Origin: Candidatus Nanoarchaeia archaeon
GTDB lineage: Archaea; Nanoarchaeota; Nanoarchaeia; SCGC-AAA011-G17; JAFCDX01
NCBI GenBank assembly: GCA_028717785.1
Contig: JAQUND010000022.1
Location: 1-24,603, forward strand
DNA: 24,603 bases
Direction of reading: 5' to 3'
Shown: one piece after another, positions 5,912-24,603 of the stretch
Position numbering within the stretch: the first letter of the stretch is position 1
How the letters are laid out: each line of letters opens with the position of its first letter
Made by a program: the position numbers and the translations under genes
The notes under the pieces: generated by a model
What the model saw: the letters and a program-made list of their open reading frames with translations, nothing else
What the model was told of the DNA's origin: nothing
Databases searched by the model: none

Positions 5912-8900
5912 CTTCCAAGTCCTTCTTGTCTTTCTTTATCTTTACCAAACATACTTTCTATTCTTTGTCTTGTTAATTCTAAATCTTGTCTTAGATAAGC
6001 AGGTAATTCATATTTTTCTGCTAAACTTATACTAGGGGTTAAATATTTTATAACTGAACCTTCTGCAACTGTAAATATTATTTTTCCTCCACACTTAGCA
6101 CAAACTCCTTTTAGTGGTGGTCTTCTAAATTTTTCATTACATTTAACACATCTAAATTCTTGTTGAGAAAATTTTCTTAAATTTCCTTTAATATCTCTTA
6201 AGAAATGTCTATTAATAATTAAAGATGCAACATCTGCTTCATCTACAGCTCTTATTTTTTCTGCTAATTGCATTTGTCCAAATACTTTTTCTTCCATAGT
6301 TGGAATTGTTTTATATCTTGAACATCTTACTCCTGCATTAATATCAGTTGTATGATGTGTAAATCCAAGACCTTCATATTCAGCATCAGTTCCTAATCTA
6401 GTTCTAAAAGTTTCTAATTTAATTTCTGATGGATGTTTATATTGTTGACATGCTTCATAAAATTCCAAAGGATATTTCCAACAAGTATCTAAATCAAAAA
6501 CCATATCATCAACTTCAGATGGAATTATGATTGAACTTAAAACTAATGGTTCATCTTGTGTTGCTCCTCTATGTTCTCCAAGTAATTGTCTTGAAAAATT
6601 CAAAAATGCATCCATCATTAACATAATTCCAGCTTCATCTCCATCACAATTAGAAACAACTATATCCCCTGCAACAAAATTATGATTATCTTCTATATTC
6701 AGACAATAAGTCTTTTCTGAATTTAAATGTTGAATTGATTTAACTTTAAGATACGCATTATTTTGATCTAATTCTATTTTTGTTCCCTTTGAGTGTCTTA
6801 ATGAAAGTTCTTTAAGGATTAATCTTTTTCTTGGTAATCCAAAATTAATTTCTTCATAAAATTTCTTGGTAAAATTACTAGGTATTATTAATTTAGTTAT
6901 ACTAAAATAAGGAACTTTTCTATTTTTTCTTTCATAAAAACTTCTAACTAAAGGTCCTGGTTGTTTTGTATATTTATATTTTTTAACATAAATTCCAAAT
7001 CTAGCTAAAGAAAAATAAAGATTTTCTAATAAAATTTCACTAACACTATCGCAAGTTACTCTATTGTCTCTTTTGCTAACCGAACCATCTCCATCAAAAT
7101 ATCCTTGTAAAATATATTTTAATTTATTTTTAGGTAAAGATAAAAATAAAGATGGTATAGATTTAGTTTTTGCATTTATTCCACAACCAAGATAATCCAC
7201 AAATAAAGAATAAAGTAATTTACTTGAATAAGTTATAGATTTATTTGTAATATAAGAAGGATTTAAAGAAAATTCTTTTTTAAAAGTATTTATTATTTTA
7301 TTTCTTATATAAGTTTCTATAGCTGCAAAAGAGATTTGATAAAATCCTTTTTTAGAATTATTTTTTCTTGAATAACCTTCCGCTAAATATAATCCAATAC
7401 AATATAATAAATCATTAGAAATTTTAATGAATCGGGGTAAACTAACATTATCTCTTTTTACTCCAATCAATGAATTTTTTGGTATATTAATTTTATTTTC
7501 ATTCAAGAAAGTTAAAGGATAACTATTTCTTCTAATAAAATTATCATATTTTTTAATTTTTAAATTATCCGGTAATTTTAAATTTTTATTTCTTATCATT
7601 AAATCTTTTGTATTTAATTTAAATAAGTCTATTTCTTTAATATCTTTTTCTAAAATATTGATATTATAAGGGATTATTACTTTATCTTCTTCATTTAACA
7701 AAGATACTGATTTTTTTTCTAATCCTTTTTTTGTTTTAATATAAACCCTATGATCTGGAGTTAAGATAAGTTCTCTTCCATTTTCAAATTCAATTTTGAT
7801 TAATTTTGTATTGATATGTTTTGAAACTTCTTTTATTTTTTTAAGTTCTAACTTATTAGTCTTAGAATTTAATGAAAGGGTAGAATAATTATTAATTTTT
7901 GCTATTTTTGTTCCCCATTTATCTACAATCCTATTTGGATTAAATCCTTCTACAAAATTTCCAATTGGAATGGATTTCCAGTTTAATCCATCATAAACAT
8001 TAATTAATGTATTTTTATGTAAACAATCTCTTCTCATAGAAGAATGAAATAATGGATGAGTGTAAAATCCTTGAGTTTTTGAAAATCCAATTATTCTTCC
8101 AATAATTCCTGCAACAGTATGCGGACTCATTGCAATTACTAAATGTCCAACTAAATCATTTTTTGATTTTAAATTATAAAATGGTTCTTGTTTATATAAT
8201 CTAACAAGTAAATCATCAATAAAACTTGCAACTCTAAAAAATATTATATCGGCTCCTTCATCAAAAGATTCTGAACAAGACGGTAAAATAATATCTTGAC
8301 ATCTTATTTCTAAAATTTGTTCATTAGAAGTTAATTCTTTTCCATAAATATCTTTTTCATATCCTAACTCTTTTAATCTTTCAAAACTAGTTCCAATCTC
8401 TTTAGGTTTAAAATGAGTAATTGGAGCTTCAGTCATATCATATCTAATAGTTCCATCTTTGTTAACATTAATATTGTAAGTTGATCTTAAAATTCCTTTA
8501 ACTAAATTTTCTGGGAAATGAGTTCTATTACTTGTTCCTTTAACCCCTTTTATTATATTTGGAAGTTCAGAAATATTTAATTTAGCAATTGCAGATTTAA
8601 AATAATTATTAATATCTAATTCTATACTGTTATAACGAACACATTTATGTTCTTTTATATTACAAGGTTCTTTTAATTCACCACAAACATTACAATTCCA
8701 TAATGGTTTTGTTTCTGAATCGCAAATTTCACATCTTGGATAAATTGTTTTTTTATTACATTGTTCGCAGAAAAACATTGAAAAATTAGAAGTTACTTTT
8801 CCTGTTTCACATGCAGATTGAAAACACCTTAATTTCCCTCCTTCTTCACCAACCGGAAATAATAAATGAGGAGAACCTATCATTTTTCTCATTTTAGCTT

Positions 8901-10773
8901 TTTCTGGTCTTCCCATTCTAGAACCGATAAAAATTCCTGATTTATCTCTTAATTTAACTTCAGATAATTTATTTATTATCTCTATCATATCTTTTTTCTC
9001 ATCAATTTTTTTTAAAATAGCTTTAACATCAAAATTCTTTTCATAAAATCCAAGGCTAACTTGTAATGCTTTTGCCCATTCTCCTTCAACAACTACATAT
9101 TCATTAGAAACTAATTTATGTGGTACTCCTAATAATTCTAAAACTCTTTTTGGATCTACATTAACTAGATCTTTTTGAATATCATATTTTAATGGGAAAA
9201 TTATTTTATCTGGATTTACAACCGCGTATACTAACCAATCTAGAATACTATATAATTGTTGAACATTAATATCTTTCCAATGATAAGTATATCTTGGATG
9301 TAATGGAATTTTATATTTTTTAGAAATTTCAATTGCTCTTTCAATATTTACTTTTGTTTTAATTGGATTATTTAAAATTTCTTCAAATTCAGTTTTATCT
9401 TTTAGTTCTTTTTCTAATTCTAATGCCCACCATTCTTCACAATAACCAGGTGGTACAAGTAAATGATTGAAAACTAAAAAGTCTCCATAATTTATTAATA
9501 TATCACCTAAAAATAATATTTCTTCAACATCATTAACATGAGCCTTTGCTTGTTCTTCATTTTCAACAAAAATTACATTTCCATTTTTTAATTTAATAAT
9601 TGGTCCTTCAATATAATCACATACTCCAAGAATTGTTGATTTATTTGGTCTCTCTGTTCTTAATTGAGTTCCAATTGCAATATAATTATTTAAAATAAAC
9701 ATAGTTGCTGGATGAATTGATTCGGATGAAAATCCTGAAACTCTTGTTCTGCCAAATCTTAATCTAAATCCACCTATTCTTAAAGGATAACCTAAAATTG
9801 GTCTTCCTGCAACTAAATCTTTTATATAAGTATAATTTGGAAATATTTTTTCTGTAGACTCTTTCTTAATTTCTCCTTTTGCTTTTACTTCTTTTTGTAA
9901 TTTCATATAATCTTCTACAAAATTCCAATGATCCATTCCAAGTTCTTTATTGAATTTACTAAACTTACCCCAGAACTTTGGTAACTTTTGTGATAAACCT
10001 TCAGCTAAAACTAAACAATAACCATTTCTTAATTTATTTGCTGTAACTCTTTCTAAATTTTTATAATTAGGAACTTCTATATCTTCAGAAGCATCTCCAT
10101 CAATTTGTACAGGTAAATGAGATGTTAAAAATTCTACTTCTTTTTCTGAAGGTAAATATTGTAAATTAGTTATTCTGTCATGAAAATATTGTATTTCTGT
10201 TGAACTTCTTTTAATTTCTTCTTCAGTTGGATCATAAATTTCATAACCATTTATTTTTCTAATATAATCTGCTATTGCTACAAAAATACAGGTTGCTGTT
10301 GTACCTGCACTTCTTATTGGTCCACCAAAATATAAACAAAAATATTCTTTTCCATCTTTTCTCTTTTTTAATTCTAATCTAACAAATCCTTCTAAGGGAG
10401 ATGAAACAACTCCATTTGTAATATATGCAAGACCAAAACGTAATGCAATTTCCATTGCTTCTTTTTTATCTTTAAATGCACAAAACTTTTCTTGTGCAAC
10501 TTCTTCGGCTAATTTAAATGCAACTCTCCAATTTTGTCTTCCATATTGACCTTCTAATTCTGCAATTCTTTGAACGATATTTGTATCTGCTACTTGTGGT
10601 GCTACAACAGAAATAACTCCTACTACTCTTTCTGCCATATTTTTTGTTAATAAAATAGAAACACTTTTTTCTGGATCATATCCTTTTGTTCTTGCTAAAG
10701 TTGCAATATCATAAGCATGTTTAAGAGAATTATCAATACTATCAAAATATTTTTTTATTAGTTCAGATGTCAT
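5899..10773 (-). CDS. polC: DNA polymerase D large subunit DP2, with in-frame intein
   Basis: Catalytic subunit of the archaeal replicative polymerase PolD. The 1624-residue product is 1165 residues once the intein is removed, normal for DP2. Visible marks are the GGPIRSAGTTA motif (150-160), the VAGRPILGYPLRIGGFRLRFGR core (321-342), GSRMGRPEKAKMRKM (617-631), and a cysteine-rich zinc region (C669/C672, C681/C684, C694/C697, C704/C711). The catalytic CDGDE motif (C1376-E1380, with D1377 and D1379 as the active-site aspartates) belongs to the double-psi beta-barrel that PolD shares with RNA polymerases. A second zinc ribbon lies at C1542/C1545 and C1558/C1561. Residues 917-1375 are the intein. 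The ATG overlaps the polB stop by 4 nt, coupling the two subunits. The C-terminus ends in RWFG, in the region of the PCNA-interacting tail. Confidence 0.97.
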   Translation of the reverse strand: MTSELIKKYFDSIDNSLKHAYDIATLARTKGYDPEKSVSILLTKNMAERVVGVISVVAPQVADTNIVQRIAELEGQYGRQNWRVAFKLAEEVAQEKFCAFKDKKEAMEIALRFGLAYITNGVVSSPLEGFVRLELKKRKDGKEYFCLYFGGPIRSAGTTATCIFVAIADYIRKINGYEIYDPTEEEIKRSSTEIQYFHDRITNLQYLPSEKEVEFLTSHLPVQIDGDASEDIEVPNYKNLERVTANKLRNGYCLVLAEGLSQKLPKFWGKFSKFNKELGMDHWNFVEDYMKLQKEVKAKGEIKKESTEKIFPNYTYIKDLVAGRPILGYPLRIGGFRLRFGRTRVSGFSSESIHPATMFILNNYIAIGTQLRTERPNKSTILGVCDYIEGPIIKLKNGNVIFVENEEQAKAHVNDVEEILFLGDILINYGDFLVFNHLLVPPGYCEEWWALELEKELKDKTEFEEILNNPIKTKVNIERAIEISKKYKIPLHPRYTYHWKDINVQQLYSILDWLVYAVVNPDKIIFPLKYDIQKDLVNVDPKRVLELLGVPHKLVSNEYVVVEGEWAKALQVSLGFYEKNFDVKAILKKIDEKKDMIEIINKLSEVKLRDKSGIFIGSRMGRPEKAKMRKMIGSPHLLFPVGEEGGKLRCFQSACETGKVTSNFSMFFCEQCNKKTIYPRCEICDSETKPLWNCNVCGELKEPCNIKEHKCVRYNSIELDINNYFKSAIAKLNISELPNIIKGVKGTSNRTHFPENLVKGILRSTYNINVNKDGTIRYDMTEAPITHFKPKEIGTSFERLKELGYEKDIYGKELTSNEQILEIRCQDIILPSCSESFDEGADIIFFRVASFIDDLLVRLYKQEPFYNLKSKNDLVGHLVIAMSPHTVAGIIGRIIGFSKTQGFYTHPLFHSSMRRDCLHKNTLINVYDGLNWKSIPIGNFVEGFNPNRIVDKWGTKIAKINNYSTLSLNSKTNKLELKKIKEVSKHINTKLIKIEFENGRELILTPDHRVYIKTKKGLEKKSVSLLNEEDKVIIPYNINILEKDIKEIDLFKLNTKDLMIRNKNLKLPDNLKIKKYDNFIRRNSYPLTFLNENKINIPKNSLIGVKRDNVSLPRFIKISNDLLYCIGLYLAEGYSRKNNSKKGFYQISFAAIETYIRNKIINTFKKEFSLNPSYITNKSITYSSKLLYSLFVDYLGCGINAKTKSIPSLFLSLPKNKLKYILQGYFDGDGSVSKRDNRVTCDSVSEILLENLYFSLARFGIYVKKYKYTKQPGPLVRSFYERKNRKVPYFSITKLIIPSNFTKKFYEEINFGLPRKRLILKELSLRHSKGTKIELDQNNAYLKVKSIQHLNSEKTYCLNIEDNHNFVAGDIVVSNCDGDEAGIMLMMDAFLNFSRQLLGEHRGATQDEPLVLSSIIIPSEVDDMVFDLDTCWKYPLEFYEACQQYKHPSEIKLETFRTRLGTDAEYEGLGFTHHTTDINAGVRCSRYKTIPTMEEKVFGQMQLAEKIRAVDEADVASLIINRHFLRDIKGNLRKFSQQEFRCVKCNEKFRRPPLKGVCAKCGGKIIFTVAEGSVIKYLTPSISLAEKYELPAYLRQDLELTRQRIESMFGKDKERQEGLGRWFG
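6649..8025 (-). mobile_element. Intein with LAGLIDADG homing endonuclease, inserted at the DP2 catalytic motif
   Basis: 459 codons (DP2 residues 917-1375) interrupt the extein between RRD and CDGDE. Splicing signals: Cys1 (C917, CLHKNTLINVYDG, block A); block B TPDH (1005-1008); block F YCLNIEDNHNF (1356-1366); C-terminal N1375 followed by Cys+1 (C1376). These fit a class 1 intein. The central endonuclease has both LAGLIDADG motifs with acidic residues intact: CIGLYLAEG (1125-1133, E1132) and LQGYFDGDG (1222-1230, D1229), about 97 residues apart. It is therefore probably still capable of homing. The penultimate residue is Ser (VVSN) instead of the usual His. Inteins are known at the same active-site motif in other archaeal DP2 genes, including Pyrococcus. 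Confidence 0.95.
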
Positions 10774-12413
10774 TTTCCAAAATTAAGAATTTTTATCTCC
10801 CTTGTTTTTAAATTTGCTAAAATTACTTTAGATGGATCTGGGTTAATACCTCTTCTTGCTTGTTCTTCTGTTCTTGCAGCCCAACATGAACAATTAATAC
10901 AATTAATTCCTTTGTAAACCATTGTAGAAACTTTATGTACATGTCCAGTTGCAAGTATATCTGGAATTTTATCAATTAGCATATAATCTTGTTCTGGATC
11001 AGGGATATAAGTATTTGAAGCGTGTGTTGGTGCAAAATGTCTTCTTTGTAAATAAAATTTCATAATTAAATCTGCTCTATCTTGTCCACCTGCTAATCTA
11101 ATACTATTAACTGCATCTGCATAATGGGGAATACTAAATCCATGATATAATAAAACATTAAATCCCGGAAAATCTCTTGCTGCATGTATATTTACTACAG
11201 ATGGATTTGTAACAATAGTAACATTTTCTAAATCATATAATGGTTTTGCTATCTTTTTATCTAAAACTGGTTGTGGTTCTGCTACTCTTACAGCATCGTG
11301 ATTACCTGCACAAATAATAATTTTAATTTCTTTGGGTATCTTAGATAAATATTCTGCAAGTACTCTATATTGCTCAAAAACATCTTTTATAACTAAATCT
11401 TTTTCCTGTCCAGGATAAACTCCAACTCCATCAACCATATCTCCAACTAAAAATAAATATTTTACTTTTTTAGCAATTTCTTTTTGTTCATCATCACCAT
11501 AATCTTGATTTAACCACTTAATAAAATTCATAAAATCATCTGCTAAGAAATTTTTTAATCCCATATGAATATCAGAAGTAAATACTGCATAAGCTTCATC
11601 TTCTGATTTTTTTTGTTTAACATCTGTTACATCAGGCATAAATAAACTATTAGCAAAAACTATTTTATCTCCAAGATTTCCTTTTATTCCAATTACTTCA
11701 TCTAAAACAATATCATCTGCTATTGTACAAAGTTCAGGTTTATTTTTATTAAACAATACGCTAATTGTTCCAGTTGTATCTTCTAAAGTTAAAATTATAT
11801 TTTCATTTTTAGTTTTTGATTTTGAAGAAACAATTCCAATTATAGCAACTTCTTGTCTTTCTTCAGTTGGTTTTAATTTATTTATAGAAACAGCATTTTG
11901 TAATTCAACTCTATTCATTAATATTTTTTTTAATCCTTCGTATCTTACTTTAAAATATGAAACAAAATCTTGAATTTCTCTTTTTTTATTAACTTCAACA
12001 TAATTTTTTAATATTAATATTGAATTCTCTTGTGGATCTTTTTCCTTTTCAATTACAGTTCTTACTAGTGCTTCTTTAATTTCTTCAAGAATTGTTTCTA
12101 CTTTTTCTTTTTTTTCTTCTGAAGTATTATAATCAAGTATATCTAAAAAGGTATTATATATCTTTGAATCTCTTCCTTTTTCTAAAAGTGTTTTAGATTT
12201 TTCAAAATCAATCCAATTTATGTTTAAATCTCCTTTATTTGAAACAACTTGATAAACATCTTGAGTTAAAATTAGTGGTTTTTCTTTTGTAATTATATTA
12301 TTTTTAATACTATTTAATAAAATAACATCATCGAATGGTTTATCTAACAATTCAGGACTAATTAAAAACCCCTTTTCTATAAAATAATCTATTTTTTCTT
12401 TTTGATTTTCCAT
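10770..12413 (-). CDS. polB: DNA polymerase D small subunit DP1 (3'-5' exonuclease)
   Basis: Proofreading subunit of PolD. An OB-fold lies at about 187-255 (EVAIIGIVSS, NIILTLEDTTGTISVLFN). An Mre11-like calcineurin phosphoesterase domain follows with its full metal-binding set: D281/H283 in TSDIHMG, D325 in VGDMVDG, N371/H372 in AGNHD, H424 in YHGFS, and H491/H493 in ATGHVHK. These support an active exonuclease. The N-terminal 180 residues are helical and poorly conserved and would include the DP2-interacting part. Length 547 is within the family's range. It is the first gene of the polB-polC-DUF1653 operon. A palindromic AT element at 12446-12459 and a closer TTATTATA at about 12436-12443 are candidate TATA boxes. 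Confidence 0.96.
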   Translation of the reverse strand: MENQKEKIDYFIEKGFLISPELLDKPFDDVILLNSIKNNIITKEKPLILTQDVYQVVSNKGDLNINWIDFEKSKTLLEKGRDSKIYNTFLDILDYNTSEEKKEKVETILEEIKEALVRTVIEKEKDPQENSILILKNYVEVNKKREIQDFVSYFKVRYEGLKKILMNRVELQNAVSINKLKPTEERQEVAIIGIVSSKSKTKNENIILTLEDTTGTISVLFNKNKPELCTIADDIVLDEVIGIKGNLGDKIVFANSLFMPDVTDVKQKKSEDEAYAVFTSDIHMGLKNFLADDFMNFIKWLNQDYGDDEQKEIAKKVKYLFLVGDMVDGVGVYPGQEKDLVIKDVFEQYRVLAEYLSKIPKEIKIIICAGNHDAVRVAEPQPVLDKKIAKPLYDLENVTIVTNPSVVNIHAARDFPGFNVLLYHGFSIPHYADAVNSIRLAGGQDRADLIMKFYLQRRHFAPTHASNTYIPDPEQDYMLIDKIPDILATGHVHKVSTMVYKGINCINCSCWAARTEEQARRGINPDPSKVILANLKTREIKILNFGK

Positions 12414-12435
12414 CGTAGAATCTTCTTACAATAAG

Positions 12436-12459
12436 TATAATAAGTTTTTATATAAAAAT
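12436..12459 (-). promoter_or_regulatory. Promoter region of the polB-polC operon
   Basis: On the minus strand, the 14-bp palindrome TTTTTATATAAAAA (12446-12459) and then TTATTATA (12436-12443) lie about 40 and 26 bp before the polB ATG. The nearer one would give a leaderless mRNA, the farther one a leader of about 15 nt. Sequence alone does not decide between them. Confidence 0.4.
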
Positions 12460-12543
12460 TACTATACTTCAAAAAGATTTTATAGAAACTATATATTACA
12501 GTACATATATCTGTGTTCGTTTAAACAAAATTCCACCAAAAGC

Positions 12544-12553
12544 TTAATAAATA
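12544..12553 (+). promoter_or_regulatory. TATA box for the winged-helix gene
   Basis: TTAATAAATA lies about 50 bp upstream of the ATG at 12600, placing the TSS near 12574 and giving a leader of about 26 nt with a Shine-Dalgarno-like AGGTG (12587-12591). This argues against the upstream TTG at 12564 as the start, because it would precede the predicted TSS. Confidence 0.4.
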
Positions 12554-12599
12554 GATTTAAATTTTGTTAACTCTTACAAAAATACTAGGTGTTATTAAA

Positions 12600-13139
12600 A
12601 TGCAACCAACAGATATCGATTTAATGCAGACTTTTAAAGATATTTTAGGACACCAACAACCAATTTATGAGATAAAAAGTAAATTTATTAATATTTTAAA
12701 AGGTCAAAGTTCTTTTACAACCCAATTATCAAAAGAAGAATGTTCTTGGATGGTTCATAATTTAGACTGTATTGAAAATATAGTTAATTCAAAAAAAGCA
12801 GTTGGTGTTTTATGGTATTTATACAAATATAAAGAAAGTTATATACAACAGGTTTCTAGATGTTTAAGAAGTTTTACTGCTCCAGTAAGATATTGGGTTA
12901 ATAGTTTAAAGAAATTATGGTTAATTGAAGAAAGAAGTTCTTCTTTTAGAAAAGATAAAATCTATTATCATTTGAACTTGACTACTTATCCAAATATTGT
13001 TAATATTATGATTCAATTAGTTAAAGAAAAATATGGGGAAGAATATTTAGATAATATAATAAGACCAAACTTAACTGTAAGTAATACAGTTGAAGATAAA
13101 CAATATAATGCAATTAAAAAAATAAGAAATTCTAGATAG
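12600..13139 (+). CDS. Winged-helix DNA-binding protein, probable transcriptional regulator
   Basis: The ATG at 12600 is chosen over an in-frame TTG at 12564 because AGGTG sits 8 nt before it and the upstream TATA-like element would place the TSS beyond the TTG. The 179-residue product has a helical N-terminus (1-60) and a winged-helix core at about 66-125: KKAVGVLWYLYKYKESYIQQVSR, then the recognition-helix region TAPVRYWVNSLKKLWLIEER, then the wing YYHLNL. This resembles MarR/ArsR-like archaeal regulators, with a helical C-terminal extension (131-179) that may dimerise. No ligand site is visible. It diverges from the polymerase operon and shares its intergenic region, so it could regulate that operon or only itself. 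The 3' end overlaps the broken mazG gene by 8 bp. Confidence 0.75.
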   Translation: MQPTDIDLMQTFKDILGHQQPIYEIKSKFINILKGQSSFTTQLSKEECSWMVHNLDCIENIVNSKKAVGVLWYLYKYKESYIQQVSRCLRSFTAPVRYWVNSLKKLWLIEERSSSFRKDKIYYHLNLTTYPNIVNIMIQLVKEKYGEEYLDNIIRPNLTVSNTVEDKQYNAIKKIRNSR

Positions 13140-13445
13140 AATGTTTATATCTATCCTTATCCCTACCATAACATTTATCCATTTTCTTTTGCCATTCTTC
13201 ATTTAGATCAATATTGTGTGAATTAGCTAAACAAATAAGATTAAACATCATATCTGCTATTTCTTCTCCAATTTTAGCTGTATCTTTTGAATCTTTTTTC
13301 TTTCTATGACCATATAAATTATTTAATTCTCTTGCAAGTTCTCCATTTTCTTCTGTAATACAAGATAGAATTTCTAATGGGGGAAAATAACCATTGTAGT
13401 TTTAATCCAATTATCTACATCTATTTGTAATTTTTTAAATGGCAT
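13132..13445 (-). pseudogene. MazG-like nucleotide pyrophosphohydrolase with a single frameshift
   Basis: Frame 1 from the ATG at 13443-13445 reads MPFKKLQIDVDNWIKTTMVIFPH and stops at 13374-13376. The other frame, from 13392, continues as GYFPPLEILSCITEENGELA and so on for 86 residues to the stop at 13132-13134. Joined, they make about 104 residues, the usual size of a single-domain MazG. The Mg-binding EExxE (ITEENGE) and ExxD (GEEIAD) signatures lie in the second fragment. The family hydrolyses nucleoside triphosphates, often non-canonical ones, to monophosphates. One base appears to be missing near 13392-13396, just before the GYFPP stretch. A TTTCCCC heptamer at 13380-13386 would allow a -1 slip into the right frame. 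Real pseudogene, sequencing error and programmed frameshift all remain possible. Confidence 0.8.
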
Positions 13446-13467
13446 TTTAATTTTAATTATTATAAAA

Positions 13468-13477
13468 ATTTATAAAA
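13468..13477 (-). promoter_or_regulatory. TATA box for the mazG-like gene
   Basis: The minus strand reads TTTATAAATT about 27 bp before the mazG ATG, so the frameshifted gene still has an intact-looking promoter. Confidence 0.5.
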
Positions 13478-13694
13478 CTTGCTATAATAAATCATTTATT
13501 CAAAAGGCCTTTTTTGTTTTATATTTTAAGTTAAATTATTTTTAGTGCCATTTTTTCAGATAAAAGAATAATTTTCAATCAGAAACCAAATTTCATTAAT
13601 TTAAAAATTTATAATTTTTATTAAAATTAAAAAAATTTTGAAAATTTAAGTTTTTTTAACAATTTTTCTTTTAGTTAGTTAATTAGTAATTTGA

Positions 13695-13722
13695 AACCTT
13701 TTATTTTAAAGGTTCTTTTTTT
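13695..13722 (+). terminator. Hairpin followed by T-run
   Basis: A perfect 7-bp stem AACCTTT/AAAGGTT with a 6-nt loop is followed by C and seven Ts. It looks like an intrinsic terminator on the plus strand, but no plus-strand gene ends nearby (the closest stop is at 13139), so it may end an unrecognised transcript or be chance. Confidence 0.3.
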
Positions 13723-13992
13723 CCTTTCTAGCTTACTTTTTCATTTTGAAAGTACTATAACTCATTAAAATAATTTTTAAAAATTTTGAATTTCTAATGC
13801 TTTTTATTAATTCAAATTTTATTTTTGGCCTTTAATTTTAATCTTATTTTATTTGTAGTTTACATCTCTTTTATTTTTGAATTGTTTTAGTATGTTTTTT
13901 GTTTTTAATTTTTAATATAAATTATTAATTATAGTTTACACTTTTTATAATATAATATAATACTATAAAACAAACTAATCATAAAATAATAT

Positions 13993-14029
13993 TAAAATAA
14001 ATGTAAATTAAAAGTAAAATAAATGTAAA
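13993..14029. repeat. 15-bp direct repeat with 22-bp period
   Basis: TAAAATAAATGTAAA occurs at 13993-14007 and again at 14015-14029. The 22-bp period is about two helical turns, putting both copies on one face of the DNA, about 70-110 bp upstream of the TATA box at 14098. This is a possible activator-site pair. Confidence 0.45.
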
Positions 14030-14043
14030 ACAATTATAGAATA

Positions 14044-14057
14044 AAGGTTAAAACCTT
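14044..14057. promoter_or_regulatory. 14-bp perfect palindrome upstream of the 14127 gene
   Basis: AAGGTTAAAACCTT is a perfect inverted repeat about 40 bp upstream of the TATA box at 14098. The AACCTT/AAGGTT arms are shared with the hairpin at 13695-13714. Confidence 0.35.
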
Positions 14058-14097
14058 CGTAAAATAAGGAATTAAACCAAATTGATCATTTCAAAAG

Positions 14098-14107
14098 TTA
14101 TATAAAC
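14098..14107 (+). promoter_or_regulatory. TATA box for the membrane-protein gene
   Basis: TTATATAAAC, centred about 25 bp before the ATG at 14127. Confidence 0.6.
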
Positions 14108-14126
14108 AAATTAACTAAGTTATAAT

Positions 14127-14810
14127 ATGATAGGTACTTTAACTACATTAATTTTAACAATAATTGCTATTTTTTTAATACTAAAGTTTGTAAAAAAGTT
14201 AATTTTTACTGTAATTAGTATGGTATTTTTGTTCCTAATTTTAACAACTTTAGTGGTAAGTTTAACTTACTTAGACTTCAAAGATTTAGATAAAAACCTA
14301 AATCAAAACACAAGTGTTATCATTTTAGCTGATAATTCTAATTATTTAACAGGTGGTTATATTAATCCAGGAACTATGACTAGTTCAAATAAAGCAATAA
14401 CTAATATTCAAAATTATCAAAATAAGTCTTACAAAGACATTTTAGGAAATAATTACAAATTAATTATAATAGATATTAATTATTTAGAAAAAAATTTACC
14501 TGAAACACTTGATTATAATAAAAAATCAATAACTAAAAGAGATTTAATTAATATTTTAAGATCTGAAAATCCAAAAAATGAACTATCAATTCTTTATAAT
14601 ATACCTGAAAATGAATTAGGTTATACAAATGAAGAGTTAAGATATCAATTATTTTTAAATTCTTTAAATAGTTTAATACAAAAAGGAGGTATAAATATAA
14701 TACTCTTAGGCTTCAAATCTAAAGAAGTTATAGTTTACAAAGAGACAATGGTATTCAAAGTGATTAAAATACTACCATTTAATTATCTAAACAAATATAT
14801 TGTAAATTAG
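14127..14810 (+). CDS. Membrane protein of unknown function (227 aa)
   Basis: No family recognised. The N-terminus has two hydrophobic segments (about 4-20 and 25-47) separated by a KFVKKL turn, giving a hairpin in the membrane. A soluble domain of about 175 residues follows, with alternating strands and helices: SVIILADNSNYL, YKLIIIDINYLEKNL, INIILLGFKSKEVIVYKE. The alternation of hydrophobic strands with helices resembles a small alpha/beta domain, but no catalytic motif stands out. A serine/asparagine-rich loop (about 76-100) precedes the second strand. A TATA box 25 bp upstream supports the start. The PRC-barrel and LonB genes follow on the same strand but have their own TATA boxes. Confidence 0.6.
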   Translation: MIGTLTTLILTIIAIFLILKFVKKLIFTVISMVFLFLILTTLVVSLTYLDFKDLDKNLNQNTSVIILADNSNYLTGGYINPGTMTSSNKAITNIQNYQNKSYKDILGNNYKLIIIDINYLEKNLPETLDYNKKSITKRDLINILRSENPKNELSILYNIPENELGYTNEELRYQLFLNSLNSLIQKGGINIILLGFKSKEVIVYKETMVFKVIKILPFNYLNKYIVN

Positions 14811-14815
14811 AAATA

Positions 14816-14825
14816 TTTATATAAG
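14816..14825 (+). promoter_or_regulatory. TATA box for the PRC-barrel gene
   Basis: TTTATATAAG, centred about 25 bp before the ATG at 14846, starting only 6 bp after the upstream stop codon. Confidence 0.65.
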
Positions 14826-14845
14826 AGTTATTTATTGTATTATTA

Positions 14846-15121
14846 ATGGAAACCAAATCCCAACAAGAGGTAAAGCGTTATGCTAGACAACTAACAGGAA
14901 AAACAGTTGTTAGTAAGACAGGAAAAAAATTCGGTGAAGTTGAAAATCTTTCTTTCGAAATTAGAACAGGTGAATTGATGCATATTCAATTAAAAAACCC
15001 AACAGGTTACTGTGAAGGTTTAGAATTAGAAAGAACCAATAATGGTGCTTTACTTATACCATGGTCTTCAGTAATAGCAATTGGTGATTATGTAGTTGTA
15101 GCTGAAGAAGATATAATCTAA
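14846..15121 (+). CDS. PRC-barrel domain protein
   Basis: The 91-residue protein is almost entirely one PRC-barrel. RQLTGKTVVSKTGKKFGEVENL (about 15-36) is the characteristic opening, followed by FEIRTGELMHIQL, the LLIPWSSVIAIGDYVVV strand pair and an acidic tail. Small stand-alone PRC-barrel proteins are common in archaea. In other contexts the domain occurs in the ribosome maturation factor RimM and in photosynthetic reaction centre H subunits. Partners of the archaeal versions are mostly unknown, with RNA metabolism or cell division suggested. The conserved position of W73 and the GEVENL turn are clear. It has its own TATA box and lies 34 bp before lonB. Confidence 0.85.
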   Translation: METKSQQEVKRYARQLTGKTVVSKTGKKFGEVENLSFEIRTGELMHIQLKNPTGYCEGLELERTNNGALLIPWSSVIAIGDYVVVAEEDII

Positions 15122-15125
15122 AGTT

Positions 15126-15135
15126 TTTTATATAC
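15126..15135 (+). promoter_or_regulatory. TATA box for lonB
   Basis: TTTTATATAC, centred about 25 bp before the lonB ATG at 15156, just after the stop of the PRC-barrel gene. Confidence 0.65.
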
Positions 15136-15155
15136 ATTGTTTCTAAGTTTGAACT

Positions 15156-17015
15156 ATGGATAGATTGAAATTTAAGACTACTGCAGATATTAAAGTTTCA
15201 GACAAAATTGTTGATCAAATTATTGGTCAAGAACATGGAATTGAAATTATTAAAAAAGCTGCAAATCAAAGAAGAAATGTTTTATTAATTGGTGAACCTG
15301 GTACTGGAAAGAGTATGATTGGACAAGCATTAGCTCAATTAATACCTAAAGAAAAATTACAAGATGTTCTTTCTCTAGATAATCCACAAGATGAAAATAT
15401 TCCTTTAATTAGAGTTGTTCCAAAAGGACAAGGAAAAGATCTTGTTTTAAAATCAAAATTACAAAGTATGAGTTCTTTTAAAAATCAAAATTTACTAATG
15501 TTTGTTTTTATTTTATTAGTTTCTTTATTTCCTTATTATTTATGGAAAACTGGAAAAATTACAGATATTATTTATGCAGCTTCAATGATAACTGGTGTTG
15601 TATTTATTATTGGATTTGTATTAATTATGAATTTAAATAGAAAAACAAAAAATCAAATAAGAGTTCCAAAATTACTAATTGATAATTCAAATACTAAAAA
15701 TGCTCCGTTTATTGATGCAACAGGAGCGCATGCAGGAGCTTTATTAGGAGATTGTTTACATGATCCCTTACAGAGTGGAGGGTTAGGAACACCTGCTTAT
15801 GAACGTTTAGTTCCAGGTTTTATTCATCGTGCTAGTGGTGGAGTTTTATTTATAGATGAAATAGCTTTATTAGATCAACATTCACAACAAGAATTATTAG
15901 GTGCATTACAAGAAAAAAAATATCCAATTACAGGTCAATCAGAACGTTCTTCTGGTGCTATGGTTAGATCTGAACCAGTACCAACAGATTTTATTTTAGT
16001 TGCAGCAGGTAATGTAGATACAATAAAAAAAATGCATCCAGCATTAAGATCCAGAATTAGAGGTTATGGATATGAAGTATTTATGAATGAAATTATGGAA
16101 GATAATCCAGAAAATCAAGATAAAATTGCTATTTTTGTTGCACAAGAAGTAAAAAAAGATAAAAAAATTCCTGATTTTACTAAGGAAGCAGTTAGTGAAA
16201 TTTTACAAGAAGCGAGAAAAATGTCAGGAACATCTGGAAAATTAACAGTTCGTTTACGTGAATTGGGTGGATTAATTAGAGCAGCAGGAGATGTTGCAAA
16301 AGAAGAAAACGCAAAATTAGTTTTACCTGAACATATTAGAAAAGCAAAAATTGTTTCTAGAAATTTAGAACAACAAATGGCAGATAAATATATTGAACAT
16401 AAAAAGAAATATCAAGTTATTCTTACTAAGGGAGATAAAGTTGGTCGTGTTAATGGACTTGCAGTTATTGGTTCAGGTTCATCTTTATCTGGTATTATGT
16501 TACCAATAGAATCAGAAGTAACTCCAGGTGGAAAAAAAGCAGAATTTATTGCAACAGGTAAACTTGGAGAAATTGCTAAAGAAGCAGTAAAAAATGTTTC
16601 AGCAATTGTTATGAAATACTTTGGAGAAGATATTAGAGAAAAGTATGATATTTATACACAATTTCTTGGAACATCAGAAGGAGTTGAAGGAGATTCAGCT
16701 TCTATTGCTGTAGCAACATCAATTGTTTCTGCTTTAAAGAAAGTTCCAGTAAGACAAGATACTGCAATGACCGGTTCTTTATCTATTCGTGGAGAAGTTC
16801 TAGCTGTTGGTGGAATTAATGCAAAGATTGAAGCAGCAATTGAAGCAGGTGTTAAAAGAATTATAATTCCAAAAACAAATGAAAAAGATGTTTTAATTTC
16901 TAAAGAAAAATTAAAAGGTATTCAAATAATTGCTGTTGAAAGAATAAATGATGTTTTAAAAGAAGCTCTTTCTTGGAAAGGTCATGAAGCTTTATTAAAA
17001 CAAATTAATAAATAA
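15156..17015 (+). CDS. lonB: Archaeal membrane-anchored ATP-dependent Lon protease (LonB)
   Basis: AAA+ protease of 619 residues that degrades misfolded and regulatory proteins at the inner face of the membrane. Order: Walker A GEPGTGKS (46-53); an insertion carrying two membrane helices (about 113-130 and 137-160), the mark of LonB; Walker B LFIDE (231-235); sensor AAGNVDT (284-290); arginine-finger region [10 protein letters not shown] (296-305); then the Lon peptidase domain. The catalytic dyad is S514 in GVEGDSASI and K557 in GGINAKIEA. All catalytic residues are present and the length is normal for the family. There is no Lon N-terminal substrate-binding domain, as expected for archaea. 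It has its own TATA box, and the 58-aa gene that follows has another. Confidence 0.97.
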
Positions 17016-21014: not shown

Positions 21015-22682
21015 ATGGACTTTAAAGAAGAGGTTATTAAATTATTAAAAACAGAAGTAAAAGACCCAGTTTTAGAAGTACCTCCAAATATTGATCTTGG
21101 AGATTATGCTTTTCCTTGTTTTGCTCTAGCTAAAGAACAATCTAAAGCTCCAAATATAATAGCTCAAGAATTAACTAAAAAACTAAAACCAACTAAATAT
21201 ATTCAAGAAATAAAGGCTATTGGTCCATATGTTAATTTTTTCATAAATAAAGAAATTCTAACAAATCAAATTATTCAAGAAATTCTAACAGAAAAAGATA
21301 ATTATGGAAGATCAAATATAGGTAAAAAAAAGAAGTATATGATTGAATTTTTTGAAGGTAATACTCATAAGGCAGTTCATATAGGACATGTAAGAAATAT
21401 CTGTATTGGTTGTAGTGTTTCCAAAATTTTAGAATTTGCAGGTTATGATGTTATTAAAGTAAATTATCAAGGAGATATTGGGCCTCATGTAGCAACAGCA
21501 ATATGGGGAATGAAGCATTTTAATGAACAACCAGGAGAAAATAAAGCTATTTTTTTAGGAGATATGTATGCTCGTGCAAATCAAATGGCTAAAGATGATA
21601 TAGAAATTATAAAAGAAATTCAAGAAATTAATAAAAAAATATATGAAAAAGATCCAGAATTAACAAAATTATGGAAAGAAACAAGACAATGGTCCTTGGA
21701 TTATTTTAATGGTATTTACAAAGAATTTGGATTTAAATTTGATAAATTATATTTTGAATCTCAAGTTGAACAAGATGCAGTAAGATTAGCAAAAGATTTA
21801 GTAAAGAAAAAAATAGCTGAAATTTCAGAAGGGGCTATTATAGTGGATTTAAAAGAATTTAATTTAGGGGTAGCTGTTTTACTAACTAGATTTGGAACTC
21901 CAGTATATCATGCTAAAGATCTTGCTTTAGCTAAATTAAAAGCAAAAGATTACAAATTAGATAAGAGTATTCATGTTGTTGGAAAAGAACAAGAATTTTA
22001 TTTTAATCAAGTATTCAAGATATTTGAATTAATGAAATCTCCATTAAAGAATAAATCTTATCATCTTGGTTATGGTTTAGTAATGTTACCTGAAGGTAAA
22101 ATGTCTTCAAGAGAAGGAACTGTAATTACTTATGATGATTTAATAAATAAATTAAGAGAAGAAACATATAATCAAACTAAAAATAGACATGATTGGGATG
22201 AAAGCAAATTAAAAGAAGTATCAGAAAAGATAGCATTTTCAGCTTTAAGATATTCAATGTTAAATAAGGAAAATAATAGGACAATTACTTTTGATTGGAA
22301 AAATTCATTAAATTTTGAAGGAGATACTGGGCCATATATTCAATATTCTTATGCAAGAGCAAATTCAATATTAAAGAAAGTAGATAGTAAAATAAAGCCT
22401 AATTATGAATTGTTAAAAGAAAGAAGTGAATTAATCTTAATAGGAAAATTAGCTAAATTTCCTTCAATAGTAAAAGATTCAGCTTTAGGTTATAGGCCTG
22501 ATTTAATAGCAAATTATGCTTATGATTTAGCTCAAACCTTTAGTGATTTTTATCATAATTGCCAGTGCATCTCAGATAATAAAGAATTAGAAGCAACAAG
22601 ATTATCCTTAGTAAAAGCAACAAAACAAGTAATTAAAAATAGTCTAAATTTATTAGGAATTGACGTTATAGAAGAGATGTAA
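21015..22682 (+). CDS. argS: Arginyl-tRNA synthetase
   Basis: Class I aminoacyl-tRNA synthetase charging tRNA-Arg, 555 residues as usual. Order: N-terminal Add-1-like domain (1-100, with DLGDYAFPCFALAK at 28-40 and GPYVNFFIN); catalytic core opening with EGNTHKAVHIGHVRN, HIGH at 122-125; the QGDIGPHVA tract (152-160); TPVYHAKDLALAK; the KMSSREG signal (362-368); and a C-terminal DALR anticodon-binding domain (about 430-555, GPYIQYSYARANSIL). The motif ending SREGT is typical of ArgRS. All catalytic signatures are intact. It follows the 20475 gene by 6 nt, apparently as an operon. The downstream gene at 22721 has its own TATA box. Confidence 0.96.
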   Translation: MDFKEEVIKLLKTEVKDPVLEVPPNIDLGDYAFPCFALAKEQSKAPNIIAQELTKKLKPTKYIQEIKAIGPYVNFFINKEILTNQIIQEILTEKDNYGRSNIGKKKKYMIEFFEGNTHKAVHIGHVRNICIGCSVSKILEFAGYDVIKVNYQGDIGPHVATAIWGMKHFNEQPGENKAIFLGDMYARANQMAKDDIEIIKEIQEINKKIYEKDPELTKLWKETRQWSLDYFNGIYKEFGFKFDKLYFESQVEQDAVRLAKDLVKKKIAEISEGAIIVDLKEFNLGVAVLLTRFGTPVYHAKDLALAKLKAKDYKLDKSIHVVGKEQEFYFNQVFKIFELMKSPLKNKSYHLGYGLVMLPEGKMSSREGTVITYDDLINKLREETYNQTKNRHDWDESKLKEVSEKIAFSALRYSMLNKENNRTITFDWKNSLNFEGDTGPYIQYSYARANSILKKVDSKIKPNYELLKERSELILIGKLAKFPSIVKDSALGYRPDLIANYAYDLAQTFSDFYHNCQCISDNKELEATRLSLVKATKQVIKNSLNLLGIDVIEEM

Positions 22683-22720: not shown

Positions 22721-23170
22721 ATGCCAATCTTAGGATTTAATATAACAAAAATAGATGCTGAAAAAAAGTCTGAAATAACTTCAGGATTAGATATTTCTAG
22801 TGATTTAAAGATATCAAAAGTAAGTGAAGAAAAAGTATTTTTAGATAAAGCACAGGCAGCATTAAGATTTGATTTTGAATTTAAGGTAGATTATAAACCA
22901 AATATAGCAAATATTAATTTAAGTGGTCATATTATGTATGTTGAAGGTGAAGAAAAAGCAAAGAAAATCATTGAAGCTTGGAAGAAAAATAAGACCCTAG
23001 AACCAGAATTAATGGAGAAATTATTTAATTCAATTTTAATGAGATGTAATATTAAGACGTTATTATTAACACAAGAATTGAACTTACCACCGCATATTAG
23101 ATTACCAATGGTAATGGCAGAAAAAGAAAGTGAAAAATTAAAGTCCAAGAAAGATAATTATATTGGCTGA
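22721..23170 (+). CDS. Conserved archaeal protein of unknown function (149 aa)
   Basis: The opening MPILGFNITKIDAEKK, the middle beta strands (AALRFDFEFKVDYKP, ANINLSGHIMYVEGEEKAKKIIEAWKK), and the end with LMEKLFNSILMRCNIKTLLLTQELNLPPHIRLP give a pattern I associate with an uncharacterised archaeal family. I cannot name an accession. The long curved strands followed by two helices and a proline-rich end are reminiscent of the SecB/DUF fold, but that is a guess without structural evidence. There is no signal peptide or membrane helix. It has its own TATA box. Its 3' end overlaps the convergent 41-codon ORF by 13 bp. Confidence 0.75.
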   Translation: MPILGFNITKIDAEKKSEITSGLDISSDLKISKVSEEKVFLDKAQAALRFDFEFKVDYKPNIANINLSGHIMYVEGEEKAKKIIEAWKKNKTLEPELMEKLFNSILMRCNIKTLLLTQELNLPPHIRLPMVMAEKESEKLKSKKDNYIG

Positions 23171-23283
23171 AAGAAATCTTTTAGTTTTTTTCTCTCGTTT
23201 TGACGTTTAGAAGCCTCTTCCCAGACACATTTTTCTTTTTTCATAATTTTTAGAATATCAATTTCTTTGTTAATTTTTACCAC
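23158..23283 (-). CDS. Possible small protein (41 aa, GTG start)
   Basis: Reading from GTG at 23283, the minus strand encodes 41 residues, largely one charged helix: VVKINKEIDILKIMKKEKC, then VWEEASKRQNERKK, ending LKDFFQPI. The frame uses typical codons for this genome and ends inside the 3' end of the convergent gene (13-bp overlap). The start is weakly supported: GGGG immediately precedes the GTG, and a TATA-like TATATATAAAC lies about 31 bp upstream at 23309-23319. It is short enough to be chance, but the composition is unlike the repeat array next to it. Function unknown. Confidence 0.45.
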   Translation of the reverse strand: MVKINKEIDILKIMKKEKCVWEEASKRQNERKKLKDFFQPI

Positions 23284-23308
23284 CCCTAAAAATAAAAAGT
23301 TAATTTTG

Positions 23309-23319
23309 TTTATATATAT
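23309..23319 (-). promoter_or_regulatory. TATA-like box for the 41-codon ORF
   Basis: The minus strand reads TATATATAAAC about 31 bp before the GTG, slightly farther than the other TATA boxes of the window. It adjoins the first element of the repeat array. Confidence 0.35.
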
Positions 23320-23320
23320 T

Positions 23321-23970
23321 CTCAACTTTTATTATGCATAAAAAAATATAGATAATCCATTGAGACATCCCTCACCAGTTTAGAATAACTTTTTCATTTA
23401 CAGTTACAAATAAAATTTTAATTTAATTCTCACTCTAATTAATTTTTATTAAAATTTCATTATAAAATTATATGAACATATAAAAATAAAATTGAATTAT
23501 TATCTCTCACTTTTTATTATGGACTTATTATTGTTTATTTTAGCTCACTTATTTTAATAAAAATTACTAGTTTTATTGATTTTTGGATATATCAACTCTC
23601 ACTTTCTATTATGTTTCCTATTATAATAACCTTTTTCAAAAGAAACCTTACTTATTTACCCCTCACTTTCTTAATAAAACTCTAAAACCCCTACTATTTT
23701 TGTTATATTTTACCCTTATATATCTCACTTTTTATTATACTTTTATAACCCTTTTATTATTATACCCAAAACCGTTCAATTAGAACTCTCACTTTTCTAA
23801 TAAGTCTTATATTTTACCCCCTCCCAATATAGTACTCTCTTTTTTTTAATCTCACTTTTGTCTAAAAAGGCCACATTATTTACTCAAATTTTGTTATAAT
23901 AACCCTCACTTTTTGTATTATTTTAATAACTCACTTAATTAAAAACTAACAAGAACTCACTTTGCATTAA
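23321..23970. repeat. Array of degenerate CTCACTTTTTATTAT elements, core spacing about 63 bp
   Basis: Plus-strand elements start at 23321 (CTCAACTTTTATTAT), 23371 and 23429 (weak), 23506 (CTCACTTTTTATTAT), 23544, 23598 (CTCACTTTCTATTAT), 23662 (CTCACTTTCTTAATA), 23724 (CTCACTTTTTATTAT), 23788 (CTCACTTTTCTAATA), 23851, 23905 (CTCACTTTTTGTATTAT), 23930 and 23956. The five from 23598 to 23851 are spaced 64, 62, 64 and 63 bp; outside this core spacing ranges from 25 to 77. Units often carry an AACCC tract about 25-32 bp after the core. All are in the same orientation. The last overlaps the TGA stop of the winged-helix gene. The region encodes no plausible protein. It resembles an iteron, operator or centromere array, but no function is shown. 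Confidence 0.75.
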
Positions 23971-24556
23971 CTATATTTTTTTTAACTTTTTCATCAAAAT
24001 AGAACAATTTTTTTCTACCTCTCACACTCACTTTTTCATTTATTTTGAAACCCACTCTTCTAATATCGTTCATATGTCTTCTAACTGTTACCTCACTCAA
24101 GTCTAACTTTTTAGAAATATCATCATACCCTAAAGGTTCTTCGGAATAAATTAGTAAAGCAACTATATTTTTTTCTGCAGGAGTCAATTTTTCAATTGAT
24201 TGAACGTTCATGAACGATTGAACGTTCATGAACAATCTTGAACGGTCAGGAAGCTCGTTTTCAACGTTTTTAGCCTGATTTGACTTTTGTGATTGAACGT
24301 TCATGAACGATTGAACAGTAGATTGAACATCTAAAAGTTCTTTAATTTCAGAATAATCATTTTCTATTCGGGATAAACGTCTTTCTATACCCTTTAAACG
24401 CTCATCATGACTGTCATGTTTAAGCTTAAAATGCTCAATCCATTGAACAGTTCCGTTCATATCTTTTTTCAAATTCTTGAAGGAATCAGCTATTTTAACG
24501 TGTAATTCATCAATTCTCTTATCTGACTCTTTTTTAGAGAAAAACCAAAATACCAT
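23957..24556 (-). CDS. Coiled-coil plus winged-helix DNA-binding protein
   Basis: The 199-residue protein has three parts. Residues about 10-77 form a charged coiled coil (SKKESDKRIDELHVKIADSF, later LKGIERRLSRIENDYSEIKELL). Residues about 78-120 are a Gln/Asn/Ser-rich linker with the hexapeptide SFMNVQ repeated, reflecting an 18-bp DNA repeat. Residues about 124-190 are a winged helix: LTPAEKNIVALLIYSEEPLGYDDISKKLDLSEVTVRRHMNDIRRVGFKI, then a wing VSVRGRKKLFYF. TVRRHMNDI is the recognition helix. The coiled coil suggests dimers or higher oligomers. A TATA box is about 26 bp upstream of the ATG. The gene faces the repeat array and its stop codon lies within an array element, so the array may hold its binding sites. 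A plain transcription factor is the alternative. Confidence 0.72.
   Translation of the reverse strand: MVFWFFSKKESDKRIDELHVKIADSFKNLKKDMNGTVQWIEHFKLKHDSHDERLKGIERRLSRIENDYSEIKELLDVQSTVQSFMNVQSQKSNQAKNVENELPDRSRLFMNVQSFMNVQSIEKLTPAEKNIVALLIYSEEPLGYDDISKKLDLSEVTVRRHMNDIRRVGFKINEKVSVRGRKKLFYFDEKVKKNIVNAK
24198..24233. repeat. 18-bp palindrome-containing tandem repeat inside the winged-helix gene
   Basis: GATTGAACGTTCATGAAC is present as two perfect head-to-tail copies (24198-24215, 24216-24233); a third perfect copy is at 24291-24308. Each unit holds the palindromes GTTCATGAAC and GAACGTTC. In the protein they encode the repeated SFMNVQ hexapeptide. Degenerate GAAC-rich pieces continue to about 24460. 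Confidence 0.8.
24291..24308. repeat. Third copy of the 18-bp palindrome-containing repeat
   Basis: A perfect copy of GATTGAACGTTCATGAAC, followed at once by GATTGAACAG and GATTGAACAT half-copies. It lies 58 bp beyond the tandem pair at 24198-24233 and is in the same reading frame, giving another FMNVQS in the linker. Confidence 0.8.
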
Positions 24557-24577
24557 TAATATTGATTCGCATAATTC

Positions 24578-24587
24578 CTTTTTAAAT
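24578..24587 (-). promoter_or_regulatory. TATA box for the coiled-coil winged-helix gene
   Basis: The minus strand reads ATTTAAAAAG, centred about 26 bp before the ATG at 24556. Confidence 0.5.
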
Positions 24588-24603
24588 GTTTAGTTTCTAT
24601 CAT

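Follow-up and report, generated by a model that had tools for sequence, protein, structure and literature searches.

A strand-fixed CTCACTT array beside the coiled-coil winged-helix protein c0 of a Nanoarchaeia contig: a candidate origin-region docking or partition site

Introduction

The closest described systems come from plasmids, phage and archaeal chromosomes. In plasmid F, parS-F is described as twelve 43-bp tandem repeats with palindromic ParB sites, and parS sites are placed close to the origin (PMC6238139). The O gene of phage lambda carries internal iterons in mid-gene, with AT-rich DNA nearby (PMC7466680), and archaeal Orc1 genes commonly adjoin the origin, their proteins binding origin recognition boxes (ORBs) (PMC3984812). 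The element analysed here is an array of same-strand CTCACTTTTTATTAT-like elements, reported at positions 23321-23970 with a spacing of about 63 bp, in AT-rich DNA of contig JAQUND010000022.1 of Candidatus Nanoarchaeia archaeon (24,603 nucleotides, 25% G+C; the whole stretch is called the window below). It lies between two convergent genes, c1 and c0, and the best reading, inferred from sequence and gene context, is that it is an origin-region docking or partition site read by the protein c0.

Compared with these systems, the array shares with sopC/parS-F and with chromosomal parS, as far as the cited accounts describe them, the gathering of directly repeated elements in one cluster. It differs in that its element is short, non-palindromic and variably spaced. 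With the lambda O gene the locus shares repeated words in the middle of the gene of a DNA-binding protein, which c0 and c3 are predicted to be, with AT-rich DNA close by; here the words, which are putative binding sites, appear to be kept at the DNA level. The differences from the published outline of lambda O are that the locus is chromosomal and widespread, that its words vary between lineages, that the initiator is putative and that many relatives carry Orc1 and an ORB-bearing gap. The locus would thus work somewhat like sopC/parS and the lambda O iterons, and because c0 and the scanned copies of its paralogue c3 contain no ParB family and the element is non-palindromic, membership in either type is not claimed. 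The Orc1/Cdc6-ORB origin occupies the same neighbourhood as the array. The array is, judged by its sequence, not an ORB origin: its element has no ORB dyad and is kept in genomes in which canonical Orc1 was not found.

To our knowledge, the way in which chromosomes of DPANN archaea start replication, are anchored and separate has been little studied. The literature surveyed (titles and abstracts, with partial coverage) contained no description of this locus, which makes the question directly testable, since it offers a place, two proteins and a defined set of DNA words. In addition, the window's family, without canonical Orc1, can be compared with relatives that bear it.

Structure and conservation of the array

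The array and its individual copies are as follows.

23371 to 23936, + strand: the array, 11 CTCAC elements (nine of them CTCACTT) in the intergenic gap between c1 and c0; none on the - strand
23506 to 23512, + strand: CTCACTT copy
23544 to 23550, + strand: CTCACTT copy
23598 to 23604, + strand: CTCACTT copy, first of the five spaced at 63 bp
23662 to 23668, + strand: CTCACTT copy
23724 to 23730, + strand: CTCACTT copy
23788 to 23794, + strand: CTCACTT copy
23851 to 23857, + strand: CTCACTT copy, last of the five spaced at 63 bp
23905 to 23911, + strand: CTCACTT copy
23930 to 23936, + strand: CTCACTT copy
23956 to 23962, + strand: array copy overlapping the c0 stop codon
24027 to 24033, + strand: array copy within the coding region of c0, over codons for conserved K-V-S residues on the - strand

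An initial annotation, made from the letters alone, had counted at least ten copies in the same orientation, and the count holds: CTCACTT occurs 11 times in the window, always on the + strand, with starts from 23506 to 24027 (the last copy ends at 24033), and its reverse complement is absent from all 24.6 kb. The shorter CTCAC is found 16 times on the + strand, 15 of these at 23371-24092, and once as its reverse complement, at 20523. That annotation had proposed shuffled sequence as a control, and shuffles do not give such hits: the 786-bp gap between c1 and c0 holds nine CTCACTT copies, whereas 1000 dinucleotide shuffles yield 0.11 on average and two at most. Since the spacers of the array units show no residual homology (10 pairs, z from -2.0 to +2.4), no recent tandem duplication is seen, in agreement with the annotation, which had judged the elements too degenerate for one. 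The limits of 23321-23970 contain the bulk of the copies and need extending, the copies at 23956 and 24027 reaching the stop codon and the interior of c0.

Conservation extends to three features, namely the motif AACTCTCACTTTT, the strand on which it lies and its position. They were followed in relatives with a matrix built from 36 copies of five family loci, at a threshold of 15 bits for the order loci and the genome-wide scan and of 14 for class loci, intergenic counts and orientation relative to the Orc1 gap; taxon levels are those of the search tool, and most genomes are drafts. Within the family, c0 is present in all four further genomes examined, all four keep the order argS-c1-array-c0, and the array stands beside c0 in 5/5 loci. 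The window's ArgS shares 64% identity with its counterpart in L001 (Candidatus Woesearchaeota RIFCSPLOWO2_01_FULL_33_9b), the one locus confirmed in that comparison, and marks the source as a Woesearchaeota-like archaeon. Intergenic copies number four to six in each of the four relatives and seven in the window, which gives 25 forward and none in reverse over the five loci.

At the level of the order, c0-type matches were obtained in 89 of 103 genomes, some of them weak or to the paralogue c3. The 18 loci chosen from these for match strength and contig room, a non-random sample outside the training family, hold 34 matches in the c3-c0 span (1.35/kb, genes included) and seven elsewhere (0.025/kb). 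All 34 lie on c3's strand, and at least one match occurs in 14/18 loci. The gap between c3 and c0 is shorter than 100 bp in 12/18, and the copies there sit at gene ends. In five of the order loci c0 is in tandem with c3, and in four of these (L197, L199, L200, L201) the array still follows c3's strand. The 20 class loci, also non-random, were taken from the strongest c3 matches outside the order with contig room; every one has the array at the c0-c3 junction, on c3's strand, with a few extra matches elsewhere in the pieces. Intergenic copies are present in 16/20 (26 forward, 0 reverse), and in a matrix-free count CTCACTTT is the most widely shared 8-mer of the class gaps, forward in 15/20 and in reverse in none. 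A phylum-wide search for c3 gave matches in 111/148 genomes at E<=0.001; in that search, as in an earlier one (254/378), many matches are weak, cover the helix-turn-helix part only or are c0 itself.

Selection on a clustered same-strand motif is supported by these sequences, since the family, 14/18 order loci and 20/20 class loci all show the motif on the same strand and at the same place. The earlier suggestion of selection for phased protein binding stands in this part; the phasing itself does not recur. The five named starts (23598, 23662, 23724, 23788 and 23851) and their intervals of 64, 62, 64 and 63 bp are exact, and four successive intervals within a 2-bp range arose in 56 of 200,000 random placements of 11 sites, by a statistic picked post hoc with the data already seen. 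The spacing analysis took in loci with three or more gap copies, and none of the 14 relatives of this kind has such a run. CTCAC spacing ranges from 25 to 146 bp in four family relatives, differing in each, and from 6 to 175 bp in ten further loci. A Rayleigh test at 10.5 bp gives p~0.16 for all 62 intervals, p~0.28 for the 52 without the window and p~0.33 for the window's 10, so that no conserved spacing at a multiple of the helical turn was found. The phasing is local to the window. In related genomes gene and array are thus both present and the spacing is not conserved, and helical or histone phasing as a conserved feature is rejected on account of this variability.

Proteins c0 and c3

The gene to the right of the array, c0, encodes a protein of distinctive layout.

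23957 to 24556, - strand: c0, 199 aa, with an aromatic/basic N-terminus, a long helix, a disordered linker and a C-terminal winged helix-turn-helix

The c0 model (mean predicted local distance difference test score, pLDDT, 72.5) shows a low-confidence N-terminus, a helix at 7-78, a disordered linker at 78-119 and a winged helix, and the c3 model (mean pLDDT 78.4) a helix at 2-63, a disordered linker at 65-97 and a winged helix. Structural best matches are weak, MepR for c0 (4e-4) and Sulfolobus ST1889 (8e-4) and MarR for c3, with winged helices of ORC subunits among lower-ranked matches. In Pfam and NCBIfam, c0 and two c3 proteins match only helix-turn-helix, winged-helix and sigma-region families, mostly below the cut-off. 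An aromatic start followed by basic residues (MVFWFFSKK in the window) is found in 30/43 c0 proteins, compared with 0/38 c3 and 5/783 other proteins.

Three described proteins invite comparison. Noc of Bacillus subtilis, a paralogue of ParB whose palindromic sites, about 70 in number, are scattered, has an N-terminal membrane-targeting helix (PMC4331003). Like Noc, c0 is a putative DNA-binding protein, and its aromatic/basic N-terminus recalls that helix; c0 differs from Noc, as portrayed there, in being a coil plus a winged helix and in having its words within a single gene. The coiled-coil protein KfrA of plasmid RA3 binds DNA and interacts with proteins of the segrosome (PMC7783346). KfrA and c0 would share the coiled-coil DNA-binding type, a likeness by published description, and KfrA is plasmid-borne. 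SegB, of the SegAB pair, is a ribbon-helix-helix protein, whereas c0 and c3 model as winged helices. SegAB is an archaeal chromosome partition system of Sulfolobus (PMC7617429; PMC11381335).

DNA words in the linker codons

The codons of the c0 linker are rich in a short word that occurs in both orientations and in several frames, CGTTCAA/TTGAACG in the window's group and GTCCAAACA in another. In c3, linker words are often four-base repeats, e.g., CTCACTCA, ACAGACAG and GCGAGCGA; L187:7904-8482 is an example of a word-bearing c3 gene among relatives. In the window, the c0 words are as follows.

24198 to 24215: 18-bp word GATTGAACGTTCATGAAC in c0 linker codons, containing the palindrome TGAACGTTCA
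24216 to 24233: second, tandem copy of the 18-bp word
24291 to 24308: third copy of the 18-bp word

At least five copies of one 7-mer within 220 nt are present in 19/43 c0 and 22/38 c3 genes, and in none of 227 genes of nine other clusters. Word content goes beyond synonymous-codon shuffles at P<0.05 in 25/43 c0 and 29/38 c3 genes (not in the other 18 and 9). In c0 genes of the family and the order (13.9 kb), CGTTCA/TGAACG is present 114 times, compared with 38 times in other genes (320.5 kb); CGTTCA is read in each of the three frames and TGAACG in two of them. Since the words exceed synonymous-codon shuffles and fall in several frames, selection in most of these c0 and c3 genes appears to act on the DNA as well as on the protein. 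The word sequence itself differs from lineage to lineage. They offer a case in which DNA words shape a protein linker and are arguably as interesting as the array.

Gene neighbourhood

Gene clustering, in which piece L137 (the continuation of L136) was counted as a locus, gives the order DP2-DP1-Orc1/Cdc6-PRC-(LonB-ArgS)-c1-(c6)-c3-[array]-c0. LonB and ArgS belong to this neighbourhood in the order and are absent from it in most class loci; a XerA-type recombinase is often nearby. The corresponding features of the window are listed below.

5899 to 10773, - strand: DP2, large subunit of DNA polymerase D, with an intein
10770 to 12413, - strand: DP1, small subunit of DNA polymerase D
12414 to 14845: interval that holds Orc1/Cdc6 and the ORB gap in Orc1-bearing relatives; here neither Orc1 nor an ORB-like dyad
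14846 to 17015, + strand: PRC-barrel gene and LonB, conserved neighbourhood
21015 to 22682, + strand: ArgS, conserved neighbourhood
22721 to 23170, + strand: c1, conserved 149-aa protein flanking the array in the family

Orc1 lies within the fetched piece in 18/20 class loci and 10/18 order loci. An ORB-like dyad, TCCA...GAAA, is present in 26/26 Orc1 gaps, at 4.0/kb as against 0.16/kb elsewhere; nine of the 26 gaps had been read before the pattern was written and do not count as independent. The dyad took the place of a strict ORB G-tract pattern, which matched only 8/26 gaps. The array copy nearest to the Orc1 gap lies at a median of 5.6 kb (2.1-7.6 kb) from the gap centre in 24 of the 26 loci whose fetched piece includes the Orc1 gap, a measure that leaves out genomes with a distant Orc1. 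In nine genomes where the distance between Orc1 and c3 was taken, it is about 4.5-8.3 kb in six.

The window's family departs from this pattern. Canonical Orc1, which scores 418-435 bits in nine of ten genomes tested (the exception, G004, is a family genome), was not found in 4/4 family draft genomes, where the best match reaches 165-186 bits. In G004 this weaker relative is 77 kb away, and in the others it is on a different contig; a second, weaker Orc1 copy (150-184 bits) also exists in all nine other genomes. Other genes visibly occupy the place of Orc1 in the window and in G002, G003 and G004; no member of the Orc1 cluster is present in the window or at the four family loci. Across the 24.6 kb of the window the ORB-like dyad pattern matches once, within DP2, and the interval from DP1 to PRC is free of it; each family locus has one match or none. 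In the four family genomes no separate c3 was found either, the c3 profile matching c0 alone. The array therefore belongs to a lineage without canonical Orc1 or c3, and its neighbourhood is the one in which relatives carry Orc1.

A candidate docking locus

The iteron-like origin and the centromere-like partition site, two roles named in the initial annotation, both seem to gain from the DP1/DP2/Orc1 neighbourhood and the ORB-bearing gap. Tentatively, and at somewhat less than an even chance, the array would form part of an origin-region docking locus (centromere- or anchor-like) of this archaeal class. Consistent with this are the strand-fixed CTCACTTT, in one to several copies beside the coiled-coil winged-helix pair c3/c0, and the placing of DNA polymerase D, Orc1/Cdc6 and an ORB-bearing gap in the same gene region. 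The clustering in G004, where seven of eight strong matches fall at this locus, the repeated linker words, the aromatic/basic N-termini of c0 and the helix-linker-winged-helix models also speak for it. In such a scheme, the winged helices of c0 and c3 would recognise the linker words, and the array would be bound by c0 or by another factor. Dimers joined by their coils might then build a nucleoprotein body, and this body, through the membrane-targeting-like N-terminus of c0, could tie the origin region to the membrane. The complex would mark the origin region and help to place or separate sister chromosomes. In the window's family, array and c0 would work without canonical Orc1, local ORB-like dyads or c3.

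Several observations weigh against this docking scheme. It is weakened because Orc1 lies about 14, 15 and 32 kb from c3 in three of the nine genomes (G084, G078 and G041, respectively). Four of the 18 order loci (L191, L192, L196 and L198) have no match at 15 bits, and when gaps alone are scanned at 14 bits, copies remain in just 7/18 order loci (17 forward, 0 reverse). On the G044 contig (829 kb), one of five strong single matches is at the locus and four are elsewhere, and some array copies fall in codons of conserved c0 residues. Unlike parS, the array core CTCACTTT is non-palindromic and one-stranded; it is the c0 words that, unlike this core, hold the palindrome TGAACGTTCA. Pfam and NCBIfam yield no ParB, ParA or SegB family in c0 or two c3 proteins, and the resemblance of the c0 N-terminus to the membrane-targeting segment of Noc is a sequence impression. 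In our own reading of the sequences, the C-terminal part of c0 varies between lineages and the motif stays constant, so a protein other than c0 may read the array.

Base-composition skew is inconclusive and does not fix the origin at the array locus, a further point on the same side. In G004, strand-averaged skew in 20-kb pieces changes sign at about 340 kb, with the locus at 338.8 kb; at the gene level the GC residual dips gently between about 310 and 380 kb and is lowest at 368 kb (42/5000 permutations reach its range), which is suggestive, and the T/A residual minimum is at 225 kb. In G044 the GC signal is not significant (1521/5000), and the T/A minimum lies at 319 kb, the locus at 241 kb.

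A bolder version of the docking scheme, possible but rather doubtful, would see here an undescribed chromosome-docking system, made of a paralogous coil/winged-helix pair with one member membrane-tethered, of self-encoded and lineage-variable linker sites and of an invariant one-way CTCACTTT array. In the window's lineage such a system would have outlived canonical Orc1 and ORBs and may itself define the origin.

Alternative explanations

A replication-origin element is unlikely, and of the alternatives it survives best. The words in the c0 gene would then be iterons for c0 as initiator, the AT-rich, strand-biased array an unwinding or helicase-loading region, and the locus the main origin in the family that lacks Orc1. 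Missing canonical Orc1 in 4/4 family genomes and the DP1-PRC interval of the window, free of ORB-like dyads, are what such an origin would lead one to expect; the array gap, C-rich and G-poor on one strand, and the G004 sign change and GC minimum near the locus point the same way. Yet array, c0 and c3 occur also alongside Orc1 and the ORB gap, a weaker Orc1-like gene persists in the family, and the T/A minima of G004 and G044, together with the GC signal of G044, do not agree.

Action at the RNA level, with copies in the 3' part of c3 or c1 transcripts serving 3'-end formation, stability or translation control, is distinctly unlikely. It would account for a strand that follows c3, or c1 in loci lacking c3, for the U-rich stretch after CUCAC and for the C-rich, G-poor strand (value >=0.74 in 15/30 array gaps and in 0/38 other convergent gaps), and most strong G044 matches do fall outside the locus. 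Against this, strong matches are rare genome-wide (G004, 8 in 536 kb, seven of them at this locus; G044, 5 in 829 kb), the array persists where c3 is absent, and Rfam gives no match at gathering score in 23100-24603. A general terminator is excluded by the rarity of strong matches elsewhere in the genome. A known RNA family also fails for the array, the sole Rfam listing in that interval being PsrR1 at 18.8 bits, far under its gathering score of 42.

An autoregulatory, operator-like site that serves c0 and c3 alone is improbable. The winged-helix models, close to transcription regulators, and the words within the proteins' own genes would suit it. The words, however, lie mid-gene, in convergent loci the array is 3' of both c0 and c3, and a widely kept downstream array would be unusual for an operator. 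For the window in particular, the array is not the promoter operator of the 23957-24556 gene, because it is 3' of both c1 and c0, which converge on it; the large operator suggested earlier loses ground through this and through the array's adherence to c3's strand even where c0 is turned round.

A polar signal on the origin side, e.g., a one-way fork barrier or a helicase or translocase loading signal, is quite improbable. The element is non-palindromic, and of the 26 Orc1-gap loci, 24 have copies at c3/c0, 68 in all with those inside genes, every one directed away from the gap; this orientation follows the conserved gene order and is not independent of it, and no barrier protein was identified. 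Weakest of all, and very improbable, is the phased nucleosome or single-helix-face array, for which the five window copies at 62-64 bp had spoken, given that relatives do not keep the spacing and 10.5-bp phasing is absent.

Further observations

The window contains no tRNA genes. Exact 15-mers shared with viral contigs cover at least 120 stretches with one match each among the matches listed, which is uninformative for AT-rich DNA. On the - strand at 23160-23290, overlapping the end of c1, is a conserved short frame (...INKEIDILKIMKKEKCVWEEASKRQNERKKLKDFFQPI) that is also present in L001; its conserved part starts without an obvious ATG. In the interval that corresponds to Orc1, a 179-aa protein without Pfam or NCBIfam match is encoded at 12600-13139 on the + strand, in the window and at three family loci. 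Next to it, at 13140-13460 on the - strand, two adjoining frames are split by a frame change and look broken or miscalled; they read like parts of what we take to be a MazG-type protein. AT-rich 22-bp tandem repeats lie at 13982-14067, within a 987-bp stretch without open reading frames (ORFs) of at least 60 aa. The DP2 intein carries a LAGLIDADG domain, and DP2 of G004 is shorter (1175 aa), which suggests that it has no intein. LonB, unbroken in the window, is split in L001:234-2770 and L193:558-5400 by an extra ORF common to the two, perhaps an intein.
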